DNA of 55,794 nt. It comes from Vicinamibacterales bacterium (GTDB lineage Bacteria > Acidobacteriota > Vicinamibacteria > Vicinamibacterales > UBA2999). The translations under genes were made by a program, and so were the position numbers. The DNA lies in the NCBI GenBank assembly GCA_030680175.1, contig JAUXWO010000112.1, positions 1 through 55,794 of the forward strand, written 5' to 3'. The notes under the pieces are model-generated. The model was not told where the DNA came from. It made no database searches and worked only from the letters and a program-made list of their open reading frames with translations. This document shows, one piece after another, positions 4,285 to 14,400 of the stretch; the first letter of the stretch is position 1; every line of letters starts with the position of its first letter.

Positions 4285-4748
4285 CGAACCTCGAGCAGTT
4301 CCACTTCGAAAACGAGCGTGGCGTTCGGCGGAATCACGCCGCCGGCGCCGCTCGGGCCGTAGGCCAGTGCGGGCGGAATCGTGAGGACGCGCGTGCCGCC
4401 GACCTTCATGCCGGCCACGCCCTGATCCCACCCCGGAATGACCTGACCGGCGCCCAGCGGGAAGTCGAACGCCTCGTTGCGGTCCTTGGAGCTGTCGAAC
4501 TTGTTGCCGCGCTGCGCCGGGGCGGCGGCATCGAACAGCCAGCCGGTGTAGTGCACGCTGACGGTCATGCCGGGACGCGCCTCGGCGCCGGTGCCGGGCA
4601 CGGTGTCAACCACCTGGAGTTCGCTGATGCCTGAATTGGTCATGGGAGCCTGTGCGCGGTTGGGATCGGTCGACGACGGACCGCCACAGCCCGCGACGAA
4701 CAGGGCAAGCACGGCAGCCGACAGGAAACGAAGGGATTCGCGGAACAT
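4281..4748 (-). CDS. FKBP-type peptidyl-prolyl cis-trans isomerase, lipoprotein
   Basis: The 155-residue protein begins MFRESLRFLSAAVLALFVAGCGG, a signal peptide with a lipobox ending at Cys21, so it should be lipid-anchored outside the inner membrane. The FKBP fold follows: VHYTGWLFD, KFDSSKDRN, DFPLGAGQVIPGWDQG, MKVGGTRVLTIPP, LAYGPSGAGG-VIPPNATLVFEVELL. All canonical active-site aromatics (Y, F, W, Y, F) are present, so proline isomerase activity in the envelope is expected. The open frame continues upstream to 4976, but that extension is translated heptamer repeat, so ATG 4748 is chosen. The stop overlaps the GTG of the methyltransferase gene by four bases, implying translational coupling. 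Confidence 0.93.
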   Translation of the reverse strand: MFRESLRFLSAAVLALFVAGCGGPSSTDPNRAQAPMTNSGISELQVVDTVPGTGAEARPGMTVSVHYTGWLFDAAAPAQRGNKFDSSKDRNEAFDFPLGAGQVIPGWDQGVAGMKVGGTRVLTIPPALAYGPSGAGGVIPPNATLVFEVELLEVR

Positions 4749-4769
4749 CTGGTCAGGGTAGCACGACGG

Positions 4770-4948
4770 TGGGGGGGAGGGGGGTGGGGGGGGCAGTGGG
4801 TAGTGGGTAGTAGTGGGTAGTGGGTAGTGGGTAGTAGTGGGTAGTGGGTAGTGGGTAGTGGACGGTGGACGGTGGACGGCGGACGGCGGACGGCGGACGG
4901 CGGACGGATAGCGAACTGGCGAATAGCGAACGGCGAACAGCGAACTTG
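4770..4948. repeat. Composite heptanucleotide tandem repeat tract
   Basis: Between the divergent FKBP and Fis-HTH genes lie three adjoining period-7 blocks. They are GTAGTGG units (about 4796-4860, with occasional 3-bp slips giving TAGTAG), GGACGGT/GGACGGC units (4860-4907), and GCGAACA/GCGAATA units (4908-4945). The left edge is a G-rich run. The first block is the complement of the CCCACTA block in front of glmS; the last is the same unit as in the atp and par spacers. It resembles the intergenic heptanucleotide STRR repeats known from cyanobacteria. Confidence 0.9.
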
Positions 4949-4965
4949 CATGACGATAATTCGTC

Positions 4966-4995
4966 GTGAATAACACGAAATATCGTAATATTCAC
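4966..4995. promoter_or_regulatory. Candidate operator palindrome at the Fis-HTH gene start
   Basis: GTGAATA at 4966-4972 is mirrored by TATTCAC at 4989-4995 around an AT-rich 16-bp centre, itself containing CGAAATATCG. It ends two bases before the GTG start of the HTH gene, in a short AT-rich island amid GC-rich DNA. A dimeric Fis-type HTH protein could bind such a site and autoregulate; no experiment or homologue supports this yet. Confidence 0.4.
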
Positions 4996-4997
4996 TC

Positions 4998-5354
4998 GTG
5001 GTAGACGGTCTACTGGGATTCCTGGTCGAACTGAGCGGGCGGGTGGTGCGGCTCGAGGCGGAGAACCGCTACCTCAGGGACGAAGTGCGGCGGCTCGAGG
5101 CTGCATCGGGAGGGGAGACGAGGGGCCCCGGCCGGGCCGGGGAGACCGGGATCCTGACACGCGATGATCTGCGGCGCGTCGAGCGGGACAACCTTCGACG
5201 GGCCCTCGACGCCTGCGACTGGCGTATCTTCGGTCCCCGCGGTGCCGCCGCCAGACTCGGAATGCGTCCCACCACCCTGGCCTCGCGCCTCAAGACGCTC
5301 GGCCTCCGCCGGGCCGTCGCTCGCACCGGCACCCCGGGCATTCCGGAGTTCTGA
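4998..5354 (+). CDS. Small Fis-type HTH protein with N-terminal coiled coil
   Basis: This 118-residue protein has an N-terminal leucine/charged heptad stretch (residues 5-36, VRLEAENRYLRDEVRRLE) predicted to form a coiled coil. A Gly/Arg-rich linker follows, then a C-terminal HTH_8 domain (about residues 58-107: DNLRRALDACDWRIFGPRG, AAARLGMRPTTLASRLKTLG). That domain normally terminates sigma54 activators of the NtrC/FhlA class, yet no AAA+ or receiver domain is present here. It is either a free-standing DNA-binding protein or a decayed remnant of such an activator. The start is GTG 4998, just behind a palindrome. It converges on the biosynthetic operon ending at 5382; a regulatory link is only a hypothesis. 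Confidence 0.7.
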   Translation: MVDGLLGFLVELSGRVVRLEAENRYLRDEVRRLEAASGGETRGPGRAGETGILTRDDLRRVERDNLRRALDACDWRIFGPRGAAARLGMRPTTLASRLKTLGLRRAVARTGTPGIPEF

Positions 5355-5381
5355 CCCGGCTTCCCGCCAGCGGCCGGGCGA

Positions 5382-6497
5382 TCAGTCGGCGAGGAACACG
5401 TCGGGATCGCGGAAGCACTCCGCAATCACGCTGTACATCGCGGCGATGAGCGCCCCGGTGAAGATGCGGTGGTCAAACGTGTGGTGCAGGCGCAGCACCG
5501 GCCGCACCTCCACCGCGTCCCCGCGCGCCACCGGCATCCGCCGAATCGCGGGCAACGCGATGCTCCAGTAGATCGGGAACTGCCGCGTCAGCGGCGCGAA
5601 GCCTTCGGCCTGCACCTCCTCGTCGCCGCCGAAGGCGCCGACGTTCGACACCACCGCGCTCGAGAAATGGTTGCGGCCGGGATTGATGTCGAGCCACCGC
5701 AGCACGGCCAGCAACGGACGGAAGAACGGATCCGGCAGCGCGCTCAGGGGATCCCTGGGTCTCGGCGCGCCGGCCGCGCGCGTTACGTGGAACGCGCCCG
5801 CCCGGGCCTCGGTCGCGATCTCCACGACGCTCTTGGACCCCGCGTGCTCGATCTGCACGTGCCGGGTGGCCGCACGGCCGTCCGGCGTCACGACCGACAC
5901 GATCGCCGACACGCTCACGGTCTGCCGATCGACGATGCGCCCGAAGCGCAGGCGGGCGTTGGCATCGGGATAACGGCGCAGTGCTTCGGCGACGGCCTTG
6001 ATCACCACGTGCTCGATCGTCAGCCGTGGCTCCTCGCCGCGGCGCGCCTGCAGCCAGGCCTGGACGCGCGTGGCGTCGAGTTCGAGCGTCGTGTAGATGC
6101 TCGGCTCGGTCGGCCGCTTGAAGAGGTGCCGCATCCGCCGGTTGCCCGCGTCGCGCCTGTCGAATCGCACGTGCAGGGCCCCGGCGGATCGTCGCGGCGT
6201 CACCTCCGCCGCCACGCGCAGGCGCGCCCCGGCGTTCGGCACGGTCTCCCGCAGTGTGACCCCCAGCGCCGCCACGGTCTCGTGCGCCGACACCCCGTCC
6301 GCGGTCATCGCCACGCCGAGCGCCCGCTCGATGTGCGTCGCGAGCGCGGGCGCGTGTCCCGCCTCCACCACCGCCGGCAGCAACCGCGTCCCCGGCGTCA
6401 CCGACCCCGCGTCCAAACGGATCACCGACTCGACGACGGTGCAGAGCCACGCGTCGACCGGGTCGCGTGCGGGGCCGGGTGCGTGCGCGTGACTCAT
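5382..6497 (-). CDS. E2-like (2-oxoacid dehydrogenase) acyltransferase-fold protein with degenerate ACP-like N-terminus
   Basis: Residues about 12-86 look like a carrier-protein fold (SVIRLDAGSVTPGTRLL, ALATHIERALGVAMTADGVS, HETVAALG). At the position of the phosphopantetheine-bearing DSL it reads P50-A51-L52, so no prosthetic group can attach. Residues about 105-371 resemble the catalytic domain of dihydrolipoamide acyltransferases (HLFKRPTEPSIYTTLELD, AIVSVVTPDG, SSAVVSNVGAFGGDE, IYWSIALPAIRRMPV). The catalytic HxxxDG box reads H343-R-I-F-T347-G, keeping His but replacing Asp by Thr. No lipoyl or E1/E3-binding domain exists. ATG 6497 overlaps the decarboxylase stop (ATGA), making it the last gene of the five-gene operon. 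A role in acyl transfer to or from the pathway's carrier, or as a docking partner, is inference. Confidence 0.72.
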   Translation of the reverse strand: MSHAHAPGPARDPVDAWLCTVVESVIRLDAGSVTPGTRLLPAVVEAGHAPALATHIERALGVAMTADGVSAHETVAALGVTLRETVPNAGARLRVAAEVTPRRSAGALHVRFDRRDAGNRRMRHLFKRPTEPSIYTTLELDATRVQAWLQARRGEEPRLTIEHVVIKAVAEALRRYPDANARLRFGRIVDRQTVSVSAIVSVVTPDGRAATRHVQIEHAGSKSVVEIATEARAGAFHVTRAAGAPRPRDPLSALPDPFFRPLLAVLRWLDINPGRNHFSSAVVSNVGAFGGDEEVQAEGFAPLTRQFPIYWSIALPAIRRMPVARGDAVEVRPVLRLHHTFDHRIFTGALIAAMYSVIAECFRDPDVFLAD

Positions 6498-7903
6498 GGC
6501 GTCTCCACAAGCTCGAGGACTGCCAGCCGGGCGCGCGCGGAGGCGTCCACGACCGCCCGCAGGTCCGCGTCACTGACCTCCGGATTCGAGACCAGCAGCC
6601 GCAGCGTGTCGACCCCCTCGAGGGGACCGTAATTCAGGAACGCGTCGCCGTCGGCGAGGAGCCGTGCCCGCACCTGGCGTGTGAGCGCGCCGGCATCGAC
6701 GCCGTCCGGGGCGGCTGGACGGAAGCAGACCGCCACGGTCTCGACCGGGGCCGCGAGGGCCAGGCCCGGGGTGTCACGGATGAGGGCGGCCGCGAACGCG
6801 GCGCGCTCGAACAACCGCTCGATGCGCGCGGCCAGGCCGGCATCGCCGAGGTGCATCCAGGTGGCCCACAGCTTGAGGGCGCCGACGCGGCGGGCGCACT
6901 TGAGGCCGCGCCGGCCGAGATCCGGGTCGCCATCCCCGTGGTAGAGATACGCCGCCCCATCAGGGGCGCACGCCGCCTCGAGCCGCCCCGCCTCGCGCAC
7001 GATCAGCGCTGAGCACGTCAGCGGGACGCCGATCAGCTTGTGCGCGTCCCAGACCACCGAGTCCGCCTGCCGGACGTCCTCGAGCAGATGGCGGTGACGC
7101 GGGGAGAGCAGCGCCGGTGCGCCCAGGCAGGCATCGACGTGCAGCCACACATCCTCGCCCCGGCACACCTCCGCGATCGCGCCGATCGGATCCACGCTGC
7201 CGCGGAACGTCGTGCCCGCCGTCGCGCAGACGAAGAACGGGCGGGCGCCGCGGGCGCGTGCCGACGCGAGGGCCGCCGCCAGCGCCTCCGGGCGCATGCG
7301 CCCGCGGGCGTCCACGGGGATGCGCTCCACGTTCGCCAGGCCGATGCCCGCCGCCTGCGCGGCGGTCGCCACCGAGTAGTGCGCGTCGGCCGACACGAAC
7401 GCAACCAGCGGCCGGTCCGGCCATCGCCCCGATTCACGAATGGCGGGACACGCGCGATGGCGCGCGGCGAGCAGCGCGAGGAGGTTCGACTCGCTGCCGC
7501 CGTCGGTGAACGTGCCGTCGCCGTGCTCGAAGCCGGTCACCCGGCAGAGACGCGCCAGCAGTGCCAACTCCACCGCCGTCGCCGCCGGACTCGCCTCCCA
7601 TGTCGCCATGGTCGTGTTGAGGAGCGTGCCGACGAAGTCGCCGACGAGCGCGACGGGCTGGAGGCCTGAAAAGAGCTGATTGTGGAAGCGTGGGCTGGCC
7701 GTGTTGACCGAGCGCGCCACGATCGCTTCGAGCCGGGACACGACCTCGTCGAACGGGATGCCGTCGCGCGGCGGGTCGAGCGGGATCGCGGCCGCGATCT
7801 CCGCGACCGGCTGCGGCGCGCCGAGCGGGGCCTCCCGGCGCGACATGGCGAGCGTCGCCACCCGCATCAAGGCGTCGAGGAAGGCGCGCTCAGACGCGGG
7901 CAC
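6494..7903 (-). CDS. PLP-dependent group II amino acid decarboxylase (GAD/CSAD-like)
   Basis: The 469-aa product carries the family landmarks FTDGGSESNLLALLAAR, HVDACLGAPALL (Asp binding the pyridine N) and SVVWDAHKLIGVPLTCSAL with the PLP lysine K289. The following LKCARRVGALKLWATWMHLG corresponds to the QCGRxxDxxKxWxxWxxxG stretch of glutamate, cysteine-sulfinate and aspartate decarboxylases. A small acidic amino acid substrate is therefore more likely than an aromatic one. The open frame reaches a TTG at 7939, but GTG 7903 has GGAGGA eight bases upstream and is preferred. The gene then overlaps the condensation gene by 14 bases. In context it probably supplies an amine for condensation with the ACP-bound acyl chain. 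Confidence 0.82.
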   Translation of the reverse strand: MPASERAFLDALMRVATLAMSRREAPLGAPQPVAEIAAAIPLDPPRDGIPFDEVVSRLEAIVARSVNTASPRFHNQLFSGLQPVALVGDFVGTLLNTTMATWEASPAATAVELALLARLCRVTGFEHGDGTFTDGGSESNLLALLAARHRACPAIRESGRWPDRPLVAFVSADAHYSVATAAQAAGIGLANVERIPVDARGRMRPEALAAALASARARGARPFFVCATAGTTFRGSVDPIGAIAEVCRGEDVWLHVDACLGAPALLSPRHRHLLEDVRQADSVVWDAHKLIGVPLTCSALIVREAGRLEAACAPDGAAYLYHGDGDPDLGRRGLKCARRVGALKLWATWMHLGDAGLAARIERLFERAAFAAALIRDTPGLALAAPVETVAVCFRPAAPDGVDAGALTRQVRARLLADGDAFLNYGPLEGVDTLRLLVSNPEVSDADLRAVVDASARARLAVLELVETP

Positions 7904-9233
7904 GGGCCTGGTCCTCCATGAGCGGGATCCCTGCGGCAACCGCCGCCGCGGGATCGCGGGTCACGGCGTCGAGCGCCGCAACGAAGGCGTCCGACAGGCG
8001 CTCGATCGTCGGGCTGTCGAACAGGCCGGCATCGAAGTCGAGCACGCCGTTCAGTTCCTGCTCGTACTCATACAGCAGCATCTCGGCGTCGTACCGGCTG
8101 CGGCGGTTCGGGATCGGGCGGACCATGGCCGTGGCGTCGAGGCTGACGCCGGTGCACGCGGCCAGGTGCGCGCGGAACGCGTCCTGGTCGAACACGTTCA
8201 ACATGATGATCATCGTCTCGAACGGCAGCGGCGCGCCGGGGCCGCGCGCCTCGACGAGACGGCCGAACGGCAGGTCGCGATCCCGCACGGCCTCGTGCAG
8301 CGCGCGCTGGACGCGCGCCACGAGCGCCGACCACGGCTCGCCTGGATCGACCTCCGTGCGCACGGCGACGGGATTCACGAACGGCGCCACCACATGACGG
8401 AAGGAGGCGGACCAGCGCCCGGCCGTGGAGGTGCCCACCACCAGGTCGCGCTCTCCCGTCCACGCCGCCAGGGCGGCGAAGTACGCCGCGAGCGACAGCA
8501 CAAAGGGCGTCGTGCGGAGCGCGGCCGCCTGTGCGCGGGTGCGCGCCCACGATGCGGCGCCCACCCGCGGCGAGCACAGGGCATTCGTGCGGGCAGGCGG
8601 CTCGCGCCGAGGGCGGTCCATCGGCACGGCCAGTCGCGGGGCGTCCGCCAGCCGCGCCTGAACGCGCGCGAGGGCCTCGACCGCTCCGGCGCTCGCCACG
8701 TACCCGGCCTCGAGGGCCACGTACGCGTGGTAGTCCTTGTCGATCCCCGGCAGCCGCGGCTCACGCCCCGTCCGCACGGCCGCGTAACACTCCCATAGTT
8801 CCGTGGCCGCCGTTGCCAGCCCCCAGCCATCCGCCAGGGCATGGTGCAGCACCAGCATCACGATCGTGCCCTCGCCACGGCGATAGACGCGCAGCGCCCA
8901 CGGCGGCGCGGCAGAGAGATCGAAGGCGGTGGCCGTCGCGTCGCGCAGATGCTCGTGCAATGCGTCCGGCGTCCATCCCTCGGCCGCGAACACCTGGACG
9001 TGCGCCGCCGGATCGGCCTGCGGCTGCACCTCCTGCCGCCATGCCTCGCCGTCGCGGATGAACACGGTGCGCAGCATCGGGTGCCGCGCGGCCAGTCGGG
9101 CGACGGCAGCCCCGGCGGCGGCCTCGTCCACGCGTGTGCCCACCTGCCAGGTCGTCTGCACGAGGATGGGCCAGGGCGCGTCGAGGAAGCGGCGCTGGAT
9201 CCAGGACGCCGGTGCGGAGGCGGACGCGGTCAC
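7890..9233 (-). CDS. Stand-alone NRPS-type condensation domain protein
   Basis: This 447-residue protein is a single condensation (C) domain. The catalytic HHxxxDG motif is HHALADG at residues 130-136. An N-terminal PMLRTVFIRDG motif (family H-P-x-L-R) and the later PFVNPVAVRTEV and DLPFGRLVEARG stretches match the canonical C-domain series. No adenylation, thiolation or thioesterase domain is attached. C domains join a carrier-bound acyl donor to an amine or alcohol. Here the upstream neighbour is a fatty acyl-AMP ligase with its own ACP and the downstream neighbour is an amino acid decarboxylase, so N-acylation of a free amine is the natural reading. The GTG start at 9233 overlaps the preceding stop (GTGA, 9233-9230). 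Confidence 0.87.
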   Translation of the reverse strand: MTASASAPASWIQRRFLDAPWPILVQTTWQVGTRVDEAAAGAAVARLAARHPMLRTVFIRDGEAWRQEVQPQADPAAHVQVFAAEGWTPDALHEHLRDATATAFDLSAAPPWALRVYRRGEGTIVMLVLHHALADGWGLATAATELWECYAAVRTGREPRLPGIDKDYHAYVALEAGYVASAGAVEALARVQARLADAPRLAVPMDRPRREPPARTNALCSPRVGAASWARTRAQAAALRTTPFVLSLAAYFAALAAWTGERDLVVGTSTAGRWSASFRHVVAPFVNPVAVRTEVDPGEPWSALVARVQRALHEAVRDRDLPFGRLVEARGPGAPLPFETMIIMLNVFDQDAFRAHLAACTGVSLDATAMVRPIPNRRSRYDAEMLLYEYEQELNGVLDFDAGLFDSPTIERLSDAFVAALDAVTRDPAAAVAAGIPLMEDQARARV

Positions 9234-11167
9234 GGATGCCCTTCCCCGATGACCACGCCGCGCGTCTCGGCAATCGCCGTAATCAACTGCTCGACGGGAC
9301 GGGGCTGGAGGATGAGGTCGGGGTCGAGGTCGGTGCCGAGCGCCGTGTCGAGCCGGTACTTCAACTCGACCAGCTTCACCGAGTCGAGACCGAGCTCCGC
9401 CGGCGTCCGCGACAGATCCACGTCGCCGGCCGTCGACTCGAGCAGATCCGCGAGCGCCGCCAGCACCTCGGCGCGAATCGGCGCCGTCACCTCATCGACC
9501 GGCACGGGGTCCGGAGGCGGCGCGGTGACCGTCCACGGTTCGGCCGTCCATGCCCCCTCGGCAAACAATGCACGGCAGCGGTGTCGCTGCACCTTGCCGC
9601 TCGTCGTGCGCGGCAGCGTGCTCTGGGGCAGCAGCACCACCGCCGCCACGGCCACCTCGAACTCCTCGCTGACCACCGCGCGCACGTGCCGGGCCAGTGC
9701 CGCGCGATCCACGTCCAGGCCGCGCACCAGCTCCTGCGCGATCACGATCCGTTCATCGCCGGTGGGGAAGGCCGCCGTCGCGTTCGGGACGCACGCCGCG
9801 TGGCTGCGACCCACCGCCTGCTCGAGGTCATGCGGGTGCAGCGTCTGCCCATGCACGAGCAGGATGTCCTTGAGGCGTCCCGCCACGTGCAGCTGGCCGT
9901 CGTGCAGCCGGCCGAGGTCGCCCGTCCGGAGCCACGGTCCGTCGCCATGCGCATCGCGCGCCGCGAACGTCCCGGCCGTGGCGCCGGCATCCTCCCAGTA
10001 GCCGCGAGCCACCGTCGTGCCCTGCACCCAGATCTCGCCCACCTGTCCGGCCTCGACGGGCACGCGCGTGTCCGGATCGACAATCGCGAGGCGCGCCTCG
10101 GGATGCGTGACGCCGCAGCCAACGGAGGCGCCGTCGATCGCGACGCCCCCGGCAGGTGGCCCCCCGGTCACCATCAGCGTGGCTTCCGCCAGCCCGTAGC
10201 ACGGCTGCCAGGCGCGCGGGTTGAAGCCCGACACCGCAAAGGCGTCGGCGAAGCGCTCGAGCGTCGCCGCTCGGACCGGCTCGGCGCCCGTCACGGCTGA
10301 GCACCAGGCCGAGAGATCGAGCGCGGCGCGCTCCTCGGGCGTCGTGCGGTCCACGCACAGGTCGTAGGCGAAATTGGGCGCGGCCGAGTGCGTCGCCCGG
10401 AGGCGCGACAGGGCCGACAGCCAGCGCAGCGGACGCTGCAGGAACGCGCCGGGCGTCATGCCGTACATCGGCGTCCCCTGGACGATGGGCTGCAGGGCGG
10501 TGCCGATCAGCCCGAAGTCGTGGAAGAGGGGCAGCCACGTGACGCTGACGGTCACCGGCCCGATCGCGCGGGCGATGATGGCCTCGTTCGCCATGATGTT
10601 GGCGTGCGTCACCATCACGCCGCGGGGGGACGCCGTCGACCCCGAGGTGTATTGCAGGAACGCCAGGTCACTGGCGTCGGGACGCGGCAGCGACGCCGAG
10701 GGGTCGCCGGCGGCGGCCTCCTCGAGATCCAGCACCGGGATACCGGCCAGTTCCGGCAGCGCCTCGAGGCGTGCCCGCGCACCCGATCCGCCGTCCGCGA
10801 GGGCGATCGCAGGCCGCGCACTCGACGCAATGGCCGCGATGCGCGCCGCGTGCGCGTTGCGGCGCGGCGGGAAGGCCGGCACCGCGATCACGCCGGCCGC
10901 GAGACACCCGAAGAAGGCGTCCAGGAACGCCGGCCCCGGCGGCAGCAGCAGCAGCGCCGTGCGTCCGCGCGCGCCGCGCGCGACCAACGTCGCGCCGATC
11001 GCGCGCGCGCGTGCGGCCAGCGCCGCATAGGTCACCGGCGGACGCGCGCGCTCGCCGTCGTCCAGCCAGGTCAGGACGGGCGCCTCGGGCGTGGTCTCGG
11101 CCCGGGCGTCAAGGGCGTGCAGGATCGTGGGGAGGGCGAGCGCCGCCCGCGTCGTCATCGCGCTCAC
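9230..11167 (-). CDS. Fatty acyl-AMP ligase fused to C-terminal acyl carrier protein
   Basis: A 645-aa two-domain protein. Residues about 10-555 form a FAAL-type adenylating enzyme: AFLQYTSGST at 169-178, GVMVTHANIMANEA, WLPLFHDFGLIG, QRPLRWLSALSR, a DLG-R-LHDGQLHVAGRLKD hinge and the TTSGKVQRHRCR tail. These match fatty acyl-AMP ligases that hand acyl adenylates to a carrier rather than to CoA. Residues about 565-640 are an ACP with GLDSVKL; Ser596 is the phosphopantetheine site. The long open frame upstream to 11590 is a shadow of the P450 gene; GTG 11167 overlaps the P450 stop (GTGA). The protein should activate a fatty acid and load it in cis for the P450 and condensation enzymes. Confidence 0.9.
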   Translation of the reverse strand: MSAMTTRAALALPTILHALDARAETTPEAPVLTWLDDGERARPPVTYAALAARARAIGATLVARGARGRTALLLLPPGPAFLDAFFGCLAAGVIAVPAFPPRRNAHAARIAAIASSARPAIALADGGSGARARLEALPELAGIPVLDLEEAAAGDPSASLPRPDASDLAFLQYTSGSTASPRGVMVTHANIMANEAIIARAIGPVTVSVTWLPLFHDFGLIGTALQPIVQGTPMYGMTPGAFLQRPLRWLSALSRLRATHSAAPNFAYDLCVDRTTPEERAALDLSAWCSAVTGAEPVRAATLERFADAFAVSGFNPRAWQPCYGLAEATLMVTGGPPAGGVAIDGASVGCGVTHPEARLAIVDPDTRVPVEAGQVGEIWVQGTTVARGYWEDAGATAGTFAARDAHGDGPWLRTGDLGRLHDGQLHVAGRLKDILLVHGQTLHPHDLEQAVGRSHAACVPNATAAFPTGDERIVIAQELVRGLDVDRAALARHVRAVVSEEFEVAVAAVVLLPQSTLPRTTSGKVQRHRCRALFAEGAWTAEPWTVTAPPPDPVPVDEVTAPIRAEVLAALADLLESTAGDVDLSRTPAELGLDSVKLVELKYRLDTALGTDLDPDLILQPRPVEQLITAIAETRGVVIGEGHP

Positions 11168-12498
11168 GCGCCGGCCCTCCGCCGCAGCGTGGCCGCCACG
11201 GGCTTGCGCGGGCGGGCGCCGCCCGTCGCGGCGAGCTGCGGTGTGGGGTCGCCCGATCCCATGTCGATGTCGAACCGGGTCACGAACGCGGCGGACGCCA
11301 TCGCGATCTCCTGCAGGGCGTAGGGCGCCCCCATGCAATAGCGCGGGCCGAAGCCGAACGGCAGATACGATCCGCGCACCGGGGGCGCCGCGAGGAAGCG
11401 CTCGGGCTGGAACGCGTCCGGCGAGGGGAACCACGTGGGCTGCCGGTGCAGGGCGTAGTTGCTCAGCAGCACGACCGCGCCGTCGGGGATGTCCACGCCC
11501 GCCAGCGTCGTCGGGCGGGTCGTCAGGCGATCGAAGAACCAGACGGACGGATAGAGCCGCAGCGTTTCCTGCACGCACGCGTCGAGCCACGGGTAGCGGT
11601 TGCGATCGATGACGTCCGACCAGGCCGACGGCGGGTCGGCGGCCAGTTCGTCACGCAGGCGCTGGGACGCGGCCGGATGGAGGGCCAGGAGGTACAGGAC
11701 CCAGTAGAGGGCGGAGGCGGTCGTGCCGGTCCCGGCGAGCACGATCGTCGCGATGAGATCCCGTAGGAGCCGGCGTGGCTCGAGGGGTTCCACTTCCGCG
11801 AGCGCCGGGCCCGCCAGCAGGCGTCCGACCATGGTGGACGCTGATGCGGCCTGCGCGTCGATGATCGCGTACAGCACACGGTCGAGGCGGGCGCGCCCGT
11901 CGGTCCAGCCCTGCCGGAACCGATCGACGTGCGCGGGGGAGAGGTTCGCCATGAGGTAGAGCCAGGCCGGCCCCATGCCGTCTTCCGCACGCGTCACGAC
12001 CTCCACGAGGTCCTCGAAGCCCCCGCACGTCTCGTCGTCAAGGAATTCGCGCAACACGGCCCGCAGGATCCATCGCCGCGTGTCGTCGAGCAGATCGAAG
12101 GGCGCGCCCGAATCGGCGCGGGCATCCCACCCGGCACACCAGTCGTCGAGTACGGGCGCGAACCGGGAGGGCGCGGACGCGGCGCGGGCGGCGGTCCACT
12201 CCGGTTGGAGGATGCGCCGGACGCCGCGCCACCTGGCGCCGTCCGACGTGACGGGACCGTCGCCGAGCATCAACCCAAGCCCCTGCTGGCCGGCGTACGG
12301 CCCCTTCGCAAACGTCTCGATGTCGCGCAGGACCTCGATGATGACGCCGGGGTCGCCGACCATGAAGCCATGGAGGCTCCCGAAGCGGAAGCGCTGCACC
12401 GGCGCGAGCGCGGCCTGCGACCTGAGCCAGGCGAACGGATCTCTGGCGAAGTCAGGAAGCGCGTCAGGAAGGGTGGGATGAACAGACGAGTGAGGCAT
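11164..12498 (-). CDS. Cytochrome P450
   Basis: The 444-residue protein has the haem loop FGFGPRYCMG with the axial Cys388, the K-helix ETLRLYP, and an F-Q-P-E-R-F meander. The I-helix reads AGTGTT (residues 255-260); the acidic residue normally before the conserved Thr is Gly. There is no signal anchor, so it is probably a soluble class I-type enzyme needing external ferredoxin/reductase, none of which is encoded here. ATG 12498 is chosen over a TTG at 12534. It is the first gene of the operon and is coupled by GTGA to the acyl-AMP ligase-ACP, so the acyl chain, free or ACP-bound, is its likeliest substrate. Confidence 0.88.
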   Translation of the reverse strand: MPHSSVHPTLPDALPDFARDPFAWLRSQAALAPVQRFRFGSLHGFMVGDPGVIIEVLRDIETFAKGPYAGQQGLGLMLGDGPVTSDGARWRGVRRILQPEWTAARAASAPSRFAPVLDDWCAGWDARADSGAPFDLLDDTRRWILRAVLREFLDDETCGGFEDLVEVVTRAEDGMGPAWLYLMANLSPAHVDRFRQGWTDGRARLDRVLYAIIDAQAASASTMVGRLLAGPALAEVEPLEPRRLLRDLIATIVLAGTGTTASALYWVLYLLALHPAASQRLRDELAADPPSAWSDVIDRNRYPWLDACVQETLRLYPSVWFFDRLTTRPTTLAGVDIPDGAVVLLSNYALHRQPTWFPSPDAFQPERFLAAPPVRGSYLPFGFGPRYCMGAPYALQEIAMASAAFVTRFDIDMGSGDPTPQLAATGGARPRKPVAATLRRRAGA

Positions 12499-12573
12499 GA
12501 GCGGGAGCAGAGGGTTCGCTAATGATAGCGCCAAAAAACAAGAGCGTCCCTCACGCCGGTGTGACGCACCAGA

Positions 12574-12760
12574 AGTCGAGTGACTGGCGAGGGGGAGGAA
12601 TTCGCCCGCACGAGACGGGACGGCGCGTGGATGGCACGATCGACGGGATTCGCCCTGCCTGGCGCAGCGGAGGCGGCGCCGGCTGATCTAGAGTCCGTCC
12701 GAGCGAGACGGAGTCGGGTGAGTGGCACGATCGAGGGGATTCGCCCTGCCTGGCGACGCG
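12574..12760. repeat. Degenerate tandem copies of the tRNA-Ser 3' end and flank
   Basis: The strip between the P450 operon start and the tRNA gene holds three imperfect repeats of the sequence around the tRNA 3' end, at about 12574-12611, 12629-12710 and 12712-12810. Each has a GTGG/CTGG-CG-type start followed by GGGATTCG or AATTCG. The two later copies share TTCGCCCTGCCTGGCG, GCGGCGCCGGCTGATCTAGAG and CGAGCGAGACGGAGTCG. The genuine tRNA end at 12814-12849 carries the same flank. This spacer (12499-12823) contains no supported gene. Confidence 0.65.
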
Positions 12761-12823
12761 GAAGCGGCGCCGGCTGATCTAGAGGCCCGCCCCCTCCGCC
12801 CGAGCGAGACGGAGTCGAGTGAG

Positions 12824-12913
12824 TGGCGGAGGGGGAGGGATTCGAACCCCCGGTAGAGTTTCCCCTACAGCGATTTTCAAGACCGCCGCCTTAAACCGCT
12901 CGGCCACCCCTCC
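12824..12913 (-). tRNA. tRNA-Ser (anticodon UGA)
   Basis: Read on the minus strand, GGAGGGG (12913-12907) pairs with CCCCTCC (12834-12828) as the acceptor stem. The discriminator G is at 12827 and an encoded CCA at 12826-12824. The D-arm GGCCGAGCGGTTTAAGGC, the anticodon loop CTTGAAA (anticodon TGA), a long variable arm typical of class II tRNAs, and the T-arm GGGTTCGAATCCC are all visible. It reads UCN serine codons. It lies about 200 bases downstream of serS on the same strand and could be co-transcribed with it. Confidence 0.95.
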
Positions 12914-12924
12914 GCAAACGTCTT

Positions 12925-13127
12925 CGCTGTCGGCTTTCATCTTTCAGCTTTCGGCTTTCGGCTTTCGGCACGATCGCGCGGATTCGCACATCGACAGATC
13001 ACTAGATCAACACATCACAGATCAACAGATCAACACATCAGAAGATACATCCAAGATCCTGGCATCTAACTTCAGATCACCACGTCACCACATCACAAGA
13101 TCGCCAGATTCTTTATCTATCTATCTA
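12925..13127. repeat. Period-7, period-9 and tetranucleotide repeats in serS-tRNA spacer
   Basis: From tRNA side to serS side: TTTCGGC-type heptamers (about 12930-12968), 9-mers of the GATCAACAC type (about 12988-13050), GATCACCAC/ATCACAAGA variants (13073-13110), and a TATC tetramer run at 13113-13127 that reaches into the serS stop codon. No open frame here has support. Confidence 0.8.
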
Positions 13128-14400
13128 TGATCGCCTTGCCTCGCATATAGGGCCTCAGTGCTTCCGGCACGATGATCGTGCCATCGGCCTGCTGGTAGTT
13201 CTCGAGGATCGCGATGAGCGTGCGGCCCACGGCGAGTCCGGACCCGTTCAGCGTGTGGACGTGCTCGGCCTTGCCCGTCCCCTCGGCACGGTACTTGATG
13301 TTGGCGCGCCGGGCCTGGAAGTCGCCGCAGTTGCTGCACGACGAGATCTCGCGGTAGGTCTTCTGGCTCGGCAGCCACACCTCGATGTCGTACGTCTTTG
13401 CCGCCGAGAAGCCCATGTCACCCGTGCAGAGGGCCATCGTGCGGTAGGGCAGGCTCAGCCGCTTGAGCACCTCCTCGGCATTGGCCGTCAGCGCCTCGAG
13501 TTCGTCGTACGACGAGTCGGGGGTGACGAACTTCACGAGCTCCACCTTGTCGAACTGGTGCTGCCGGATCAGCCCGCGCACGTCCGCGCCGTAGGATCCC
13601 GCCTCGCTGCGGAAGCACGGCGTGTAGGAGGCGTACTTGATCGGCAGCAGGCGTCCGTCGAGGATCTCCCCTCGATAAAGGTTCGTGACCGGCACCTCGG
13701 CGGTCGGGATCAGGTAGAGATCCCAGTCGCCCCCGATCTTGAAGAGGTCCGCCTCGAACTTCGGGAGCTGGCCGGTCCCGAAGAGCGTCTGGCTGTTGAC
13801 CAGGAACGGCGGCTCGATCTCCGTGTAGCCGTGTTCGGTGGCGTGCAGCTCCAGCATGAAGTTGATGAGCGCGCGTTCGAGCTGCGCGCCGGCCCCCGAC
13901 AGCACCGCGAAGCGCGCGCCGGCGATCTTGGTGGCCCGTTCGAAGTCGATGATCCCGAGTGCGGGGCCGAGATCCCAGTGCGCCTTCGGCTCGAAGTCGA
14001 ACACGCGCGGTTCGCCCCACGTGCGCACCACGACGTTGTCCGCCGCGGTCTTGCCGACCGGCACGCTCGCGTGCGGCAGGTTCGGAAGGTTCGCCAGGAG
14101 CCGCGTCCGCTGCTGCTCGACCGTGCCGAGTTCCACCTCCAGCTGCTTGATCTTCTGGCTGCGCTGCTTGTTCGCCTCGAAGATTGGCCGCGCGTCCAGG
14201 CCCTGGCGCTTGGTACGCGCCACTTCGTCGCCCGCGGCGTTCTGCTCGCGCTTCAGGCCCTCCATCTGCGGGATCAGGCGGCGGCGGTGCGATTCGAGGG
14301 TCGCCAGTTGCTCGAGCTCGGCCGTGGCATCCAGGCCGCGCGAGGCAAGGCCGGCCTTGACAAGGTCGAGGTTGTCTCTGACGTAGGAGGGATCAAGCAT
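13117..14400 (-). CDS. serS: Seryl-tRNA synthetase
   Basis: A 427-residue class IIa synthetase that charges tRNA-Ser. The N-terminal helical arm ([20 protein letters not shown] through the Glu/Lys-rich coiled coil to about residue 105) binds the long variable arm of tRNA-Ser. The catalytic core shows motif 2 ([20 protein letters not shown]) and motif 3 ([19 protein letters not shown]), with [15 protein letters not shown] as the family signature. The frame extends to 14466, but the extra residues are translated heptamer repeat; ATG 14400 begins the conserved protein. Its stop lies in a TATC repeat, and a cognate tRNA-Ser follows on the same strand. Confidence 0.97.

Follow-up and report, generated by a model that had tools for sequence, protein, structure and literature searches.

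Gene content and organization of the operon

The DNA examined here comes from an acidobacterial genome of the order Vicinamibacterales (GenBank assembly GCA_030680175.1), in which positions 1 to 55,794 of contig JAUXWO010000112.1 were analyzed and are referred to below as the window. A run of five genes on the minus strand of this window codes, in operon order, for a cytochrome P450, a fatty acyl-AMP ligase (FAAL) fused to an acyl carrier protein (ACP), a free-standing condensation (C) domain, a pyridoxal phosphate (PLP)-dependent decarboxylase and an E2-like acyltransferase. The run spans positions 5382-12498, from the stop codon of the E2-like gene to the P450 start codon (ATG at 12498), and its successive genes overlap by 4, 4, 14, and 4 bases. 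We regard these genes as one translationally coupled operon, which was acquired at a tRNA-Ser gene and makes a fatty acid amide (FAA), a composite reading whose chances of being correct appear to us to be about even. The genes are as follows, with lengths in amino acids (aa).

11164..12498, minus strand: cytochrome P450, first gene of the operon; 444 aa; Pfam p450, 1.1e-50
9230..11167, minus strand: FAAL fused to ACP; 645 aa from GTG; AMP-binding, 2.6e-61, and PP-binding, 3.3e-6
7890..9233, minus strand: free-standing C domain with the motif HHALADG; 447 aa; Pfam Condensation, 2.1e-46
6494..7903, minus strand: PLP decarboxylase of the GAD/CSAD/GADL1 group; 469 aa from GTG; Pyridoxal_deC, 4.7e-78
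5382..6497, minus strand: E2-like (CAT-fold) stand-alone acyltransferase; 371 aa; 2-oxoacid_dh, 5.9e-17; with an extra N-terminal region of about 100 aa

An alternative start of the FAAL-ACP gene, an ATG at 11158, would give a protein of 642 aa. A sequence-only reading of this DNA had described five minus-strand genes with overlaps of 4–14 bases, and both its coordinates and the overlaps proved to be exact. The domain content that it assigned to the five genes was recovered in each case by Pfam (p450, AMP-binding with PP-binding, Condensation, Pyridoxal_deC, and 2-oxoacid_dh), and in agreement with its statement that a thioesterase and an adenylation domain for an amino acid are lacking, neither a thioesterase nor a second adenylation domain was matched in the five proteins (Pfam, E 0.01). 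The G+C content of the operon genes is 72–74%, at which long frames also arise on the opposite strand; hence, frame length is no proof of coding, and the proof is provided by the Pfam matches. The third-position G+C of all five open frames is 0.89–0.92. No promoter-like site was found within positions 4700-13000.

Probable insertion of the operon at a tRNA-Ser locus

Upstream of the operon lie a tRNA-Ser (TGA) gene and then serS and galU (the last two named from their translations), and downstream of it are found a gene for a Fis-type helix-turn-helix (HTH) protein, an FKBP gene, a rumA-like methyltransferase gene and an O-antigen-ligase-like gene. The features that bear upon the insertion are listed below.

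4733..12823, no strand assigned: segment presumed to be inserted, running from the 3' end of tRNA-Ser up to where FKBP homology begins; right edge approximate; missing from 8 same-family sites
12824..12913, minus strand: tRNA-Ser (TGA), edge of the inserted segment; ARAGORN; Rfam tRNA, 56.1 bits
12560..12790, minus strand: one or more degenerate copies of the 3' end of tRNA-Ser and its terminator, lying between this tRNA and the P450 gene; local alignment
4998..5354, plus strand: gene for a small HTH protein of the Fis type, within the inserted segment and convergent with the operon; HTH_8, 1.8e-5

The same-family sample comprised 42 genomes, and serS was detected at 1e-100 in 32 relatives besides the genome itself. 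From these, 13 serS sites were taken in a non-random manner, viz. all eight with FKBP on the same contig at a distance of no more than 2 kb and five more picked for high serS identity. In all eight sites where serS and FKBP are neighbors, which come from two genera, the order galU-serS-tRNA-Ser-FKBP-rumA is present without the operon genes, and neither the five operon proteins nor the Fis-type protein gave a match there (tblastn, with 1e-3 for the Fis-type protein). In the window this conserved order is split, with an interval of about 8 kb between tRNA-Ser and FKBP. At two of the eight empty sites the tRNA, as placed by ARAGORN, and serS lie on opposite strands. The operon genes were found at none of the five extra sites; in one of these (genome G041) tRNA-Ser lies 3.6 kb from serS at a contig end, and in the other four neither tRNA-Ser nor FKBP was present within the stretch taken.

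The tRNA 3' end is repeated in the interval that separates the tRNA from the P450 gene, with a local alignment score of 58, in comparison to a maximum of 26 in 100 shuffles. An exact 18-mer occurs at 12699 and 12800, yet at least two hits were also obtained in 13 of 100 shuffles when three mismatches were allowed, and one more copy of the tRNA-end repeat within 12560-12790 was picked out by eye. These decayed repeats suggest integration events at tRNA-Ser. The codon-usage distance of the five operon genes (0.066–0.092) is set against 0.030–0.060 for 11 of the 12 other genes of the window; the twelfth, the native neighbor rumA, has a distance of 0.073.

Because all eight serS-FKBP sites are empty, a tRNA-end repeat is present and the codon usage deviates, the operon looks to have been acquired at a tRNA hot spot, the far end of the insertion having decayed. 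Of the hallmarks of a tRNA-targeted genomic island, an insertion next to a tRNA and an empty site in relatives are both found. A repeat at the far (FKBP) end is lacking (score 21, as against a shuffle mean of 20.6), and no integrase was present among the open reading frames (ORFs) scanned in the inserted segment. Loss of the operon from the eight relatives, instead of its gain here, is the less likely explanation of the empty sites.

The Fis-type HTH protein is possibly a regulator of the operon. Simple short C/A-rich repeats occupy about 4760-4990, between its ORF and FKBP. Elsewhere in the window, Pfam matches to gyrA, gyrB, dnaN, dnaA, yidC, mnmE, gidA, and two ATP synthase subunit genes mark a replication-origin region at 25860-49615, dnaA being about 20 kb away from the operon. 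A tRNA-Thr reported by ARAGORN at 14176-14260, antisense inside serS and with no Rfam match at the gathering threshold, is probably spurious.

Proteins of the operon and the proposed pathway

Among solved chains, the FAAL-ACP protein is closest to 7r7g (named polyketide synthase; 1.7e-120) and 3kxw (2.8e-107), both of which we take to be FAALs, and the chains named as FAALs that it matched include FadD23 (1.2e-77) and 3pbk (1.6e-76). The FAAL core fragment matched FadD23 at 1.8e-53, whereas the match to the acyl-CoA (CoA, coenzyme A) ligase 3g7s was 3.9e-22. By these comparisons, the protein appears to be akin to FAALs and not to acyl-CoA ligases. The serine of its ACP is intact (LGLDSV), and the genome codes for one ACPS-family (PF01648) protein. 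The motif HHALADG of the C domain is of the canonical form HHxxxDG, and the protein contains a Condensation domain only, with no acceptor carrier domain. A further nonribosomal peptide synthetase (NRPS), with a C domain that is 35% identical, is encoded on contig C32 of the same genome.

The decarboxylase has retained the PLP lysine (in DAHK), and its closest solved chains are GADL1 (1.6e-82), CSAD (3.3e-81), and GAD (2.2e-73). The view that it is a GAD/CSAD-like enzyme was thus upheld by the solved chains and by the lysine, a detail running against it being that NCBIfam gave L-2,4-diaminobutyrate decarboxylase RhbB as its best match (3.8e-62), but with 210 bits as against a cut-off of 900; the chain 2qma, named diaminobutyrate decarboxylase, was matched at 1.4e-41. 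Read by eye, the protein also has a CSAD-like NQLFSG stretch and an Arg near the C-terminus, to which we presume a functional role. Counted from the TTG at 7939, residues 288, 345, 349, and 353 differ from columns that are at least 95% conserved in 83 relatives. PADLOC gave just two weak matches for this protein, to SspA and DndA. Since the genome contains one cysteine dioxygenase homolog (a partial profile match, 5.2e-10), cysteine sulfinate is kept as a possible substrate.

The E2 part of the last protein of the operon is, on sequence grounds, a member of a stand-alone acyltransferase family that is common in Myxococcota, and the protein is not the E2 component of a 2-oxoacid dehydrogenase; a lipoyl domain was not matched in it at E 0.01. 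Relatives of the E2 part were detected in 92 of the 377 genomes (E 1e-19) of a phylum taken to be Myxococcota because it contains the Nannocystis locus L165, and among the matches listed they share 29–41% identity over most of the E2 part. The motif DHRxxDG is present in 20 of 23 aligned relatives. The operon protein differs from this family in its extra N-terminal region of about 100 aa and in having HxxxTG instead of HxxxDG. As the relatives match only from residue 79 onward (the match begins at query residue 79 or later in all 20 that were fetched, L226-L245), the N-terminal region is an addition.

The sequence-only reading had called this N-terminus ACP-like. In favor of this, PP-binding is its best Pfam match and covers nearly the whole profile (E 0.015), and a home-made ACP profile built from three sequences gave 8.1 bits, a value that two of 1,000 shuffled versions of this stretch also reached. 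Against it, the PP-binding score of 16.0 bits is below the Pfam cut-off of 20.8, and the place of the carrier serine reads Pro by eye. An AlphaFold model of the whole protein was poor (predicted local distance difference test score, pLDDT, 41) and was not used. In a model of the first 95 residues four helices were seen at a pLDDT of 60. Foldseek found nothing similar to this model at 0.001, and none of the matches listed was a carrier protein. The likeness to ACP is thus suggestive, and the carrier serine seems to have been lost.

The heme Cys motif of the P450 (FGFGPRYCMG) is intact and ETLR is present.

From the observed gene content and order, a pathway may be proposed in which every reaction, substrate, and product is a prediction. 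The FAAL would activate a free fatty acid as acyl-AMP and load it onto its own fused ACP. From an amino acid that is small and acidic, namely Asp, cysteine sulfinate or Glu, the decarboxylase would produce a free omega-amine (beta-alanine, hypotaurine or gamma-aminobutyric acid [GABA], respectively). The free-standing C domain would then couple the acyl group of the ACP to this amine and thereby set the product free, with no need of a thioesterase or of an adenylation domain for an amino acid. The P450 would oxidize the acyl chain, and the E2-like protein may act as a second acyltransferase, either handing an ACP-bound acyl group on to a further acceptor or off-loading the chain. On the best reading, the product would be a P450-oxidized N-acyl omega-amino acid (acyl-beta-alanine, -GABA or -hypotaurine). 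The amide idea of the sequence-only reading is best supported by the fact that the GAD/CSAD/GADL1 group makes small omega-amino acid acceptors, which is the strongest argument for it. The coupling of a FAAL-ACP with a stand-alone C domain, which it had also put forward, is favored by the domain content and the intact motifs.

The suggestion that this is a new type of pathway did not hold, as FAA pathways of the Oaa type, with the same core, are already established (PMC13142362). In that paper, the Oaa pathway of Coprococcus eutactus (OaaA, OaaACP, and OaaC) is described as reconstituted in vitro from three proteins, which are sufficient: a FAAL-like enzyme, its ACP, and a C domain that is free-standing and uses free amines. 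OaaC is described as linking several fatty acids to aminovalerate or GABA as amides in vitro (PMC13142362). By analogy, the operon would work like an Oaa pathway: it contains both a FAAL with its carrier and a free-standing C domain, and in both systems the FAAL-like enzyme would load an ACP from which the C domain passes the acyl group to a small, diffusing amine. Unlike in Oaa, the ACP is here fused to the FAAL, the C domain motif is HHALADG instead of mostly (D/H)HxxxD(S/A), and the operon further codes for a decarboxylase, a P450, and an E2-like protein. The word "decarboxylase" has a count of zero in the Oaa paper (PMC13142362).

A likeness is also seen to other known enzymes. In GADL1, CSAD, and GAD, which are group II decarboxylases, it lies in their being the closest solved chains and in the conserved PLP lysine. 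VibH, the amide synthase of vibriobactin, differs in that its acyl donor is an aryl group. The likeness in its case lies in a stand-alone C domain that acts on an acyl group bound to a carrier and on an amine in solution, as described in PMC3547906.

What is new is the package, in which a fused, insertion-less FAAL-ACP is combined with a decarboxylase of the GAD/CSAD-like kind, with a P450, and with an E2-like protein whose HxxxDG motif is altered. No cluster of the same composition was recognized in the open-license literature, as judged from titles and the beginnings of abstracts, and in keeping with the sequence-only reading no identical named cluster turned up in the searches made.

Occurrence of the operon genes in other genomes

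No full-length match to the E2-like protein was found in 99 relatives (including the genome itself), 396 genomes of the phylum or the 377 Myxococcota genomes, the best-scored candidates per genome matching the E2 part only. There was no match to it in plasmids and no relative among 100 pattern matches in genome contigs, where the scans require short, near-exact peptides, so that diverged or distant copies can be missed. Homologs of the FAAL, C domain, decarboxylase, and P450 were absent at E 1e-4 near all 20 relatives of the E2 part whose contexts were taken (the first 18 and two others of the matches listed; four of the 20 stretches are shorter than 10 kb).

The best five relatives of the decarboxylase in the phylum show 38–42% identity. 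Beside decarboxylase relatives in the phylum, homologs of the C domain, E2-like protein or P450 were found in none of 11 contexts, one of which (L102) has a weak FAAL-like hit (25%, 1.6e-5). Similarly, none of the partner genes (FAAL, C, E2, P450) was present at 80 decarboxylase-related loci, which were kept from 213 in a six-row alignment scan of genome contigs and of which 15 are shorter than 10 kb.

Relatives of the FAAL at 1e-90 occur in 18 of the 396 phylum genomes, including its own, where they sit in NRPSs or apart. C domains are found in five of ten such contexts, and E2, decarboxylase, and P450 homologs in none of the ten. For the C domain, hits of 25–35% identity were obtained in 20 of the 99 relatives (own genome included), mostly in long NRPS-like frames. 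Eight such regions contained no E2, decarboxylase or P450 hits, and the FAAL query matched there at just 25–46%, matches that are taken for NRPS adenylation domains. In plasmids, eight records matched the C domain at 29–33% identity; seven are annotated as NRPS or adenylation proteins and the eighth, which is unannotated, lies in a giant NRPS-like frame. No relative of the C domain was present among 24 pattern matches in viral contigs.

Weighing of the proposed function and alternative explanations

A number of observations weigh against the proposed function. A second copy of the operon was found neither in the relatives and phylum genomes nor in Myxococcota, plasmids or genome contigs (metagenomes were not scanned), and because of this the functional linkage of the five genes rests on their overlaps. 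The co-conservation of the five genes that the sequence-only reading had proposed as a check was therefore not borne out, and the operon looks acquired instead. A cassette seen in a single genome and having several altered motifs could also be decaying.

In the FAAL, the FAAL-specific insertion (FSI) appears from the alignments to be gone, the region being about 20 aa short: the span from PxYG to GEIWV is 60 aa, whereas among 20 related loci it could be extracted in 12, measuring 78–89 aa in 11 and 63 aa in one, and the net alignment gap is 22 aa against 7r7f and 20 aa against 3kxw. According to one study, the FAAL-specific helix and a crowded pocket weigh more than the FSI in the rejection of CoA (PMC8460268). 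The stretches for this helix and for the crowded CoA pocket look to be present when EcFAAL residues are mapped by eye (TPGAFLQRP, TWLP, and PNFAY in the alignment, the M231 place being Phe). A second insertion-less FAAL-like protein, that with the span of 63 aa, is found at locus L265 (contig 108 of genome G065), without other operon genes nearby.

The nearest solved chains of the C domain are ordinary NRPS C domains (4.4e-27), its match to VibH (1l5a) is marginal (E 0.023), and its motif ends in Gly. This is a minority form among published FAA C domains, most of which have (D/H)HxxxD followed by Ser or Ala, with Gly in 17% of the published set; these domains make up a monophyletic clade next to starter C domains (PMC13142362). 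For the decarboxylase, the RhbB match leaves a diamine product possible. Its catalytic loop, YLYHGDGDPDLGRRGLKCARR, is short and without Tyr after the first three residues, and in this it differs from GADL1. The determinants that separate similar acidic substrates are not known, and the loop Tyr is probably important in GADL1, as stated in PMC5947694. Among 69 relatives with an extractable loop, this Tyr is present in 31 and absent in 38. The E2-like protein has DHRIFTG, with Thr347 where all 23 relatives have Asp (HxxxDG). In the I-helix of the P450 (AGTGTT), Gly is aligned with the Glu of CYP3A4, the usual I-helix acid being gone. By their sequences, the E2-like protein or the P450 could be altered or inactive.

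The alternative that survives best, although we think it unlikely, is that a fatty amide is made but its acceptor is not derived from an acidic amino acid, with the decarboxylase serving in general metabolism or making a diamine (1,3-diaminopropane), or the C domain using a common polyamine or amino acid. The C domain is indeed most like those NRPS C domains that use amino acids, NCBIfam matches the decarboxylase best to diaminobutyrate decarboxylase, and the family of the decarboxylase occurs widely apart from such clusters, with the partner genes nearby at none of the 80 related loci. However, the decarboxylase gene overlaps both of its neighbors (by 14 and 4 bases) in an acquired segment, which favors a shared role, and the GADL1/CSAD/GAD chains (1.6e-82 to 3.3e-69) are well ahead of 2qma.

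It is rather more doubtful that the C domain and the E2-like enzyme each add an acyl group, so that the amide lipid would be diacylated or esterified and the ACP-like N-terminus would serve as a docking piece. The C domain and E2 acyltransferases share the CAT fold, so that the operon holds two CAT-fold acyltransferases, one of them with its E2 part in the stand-alone Myxococcota family and its N-terminal part an addition. The change of the HxxxDG Asp to Thr, however, makes the activity of the E2-like protein uncertain, and the likeness of its N-terminus to ACP is merely suggestive.

We likewise see little chance that the operon is the decaying fragment of a larger lipopeptide cluster, whose missing partners lie elsewhere in the genome. 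The altered motifs in the FAAL, the E2-like protein, and the P450, together with the NRPS on contig C32, would fit such a history, but all five frames are open, their overlaps are coupled, their third-position G+C is uniformly within the range given above, and no truncated biosynthetic gene was recognized among the ORFs scanned in the inserted segment. Lastly, it is improbable that the operon is a self-sufficient mobile cassette for an undescribed lipid class, supplying its own omega-amine (possibly hypotaurine, leading to a sulfino-lipid), coupling it through the FAAL-ACP and the C domain, oxidizing it by an unusual P450, and adding a second acyl group by the pseudo-ACP/E2-like enzyme.

Significance

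If the reading of the locus as an acquired operon for FAA synthesis is correct, then the synthesis of such amides by a free-standing C domain would reach beyond the gut Clostridia, and the supply of the amine and the tailoring of the product would travel together with amide synthesis in one transferable block. The natural pairing of a C domain with a dedicated decarboxylase would allow the specificity of free C domains for amines to be tested, and a naturally insertion-less FAAL would inform the debate on how FAALs refuse CoA. It would also offer a role for the widespread family of stand-alone E2-like acyltransferases.

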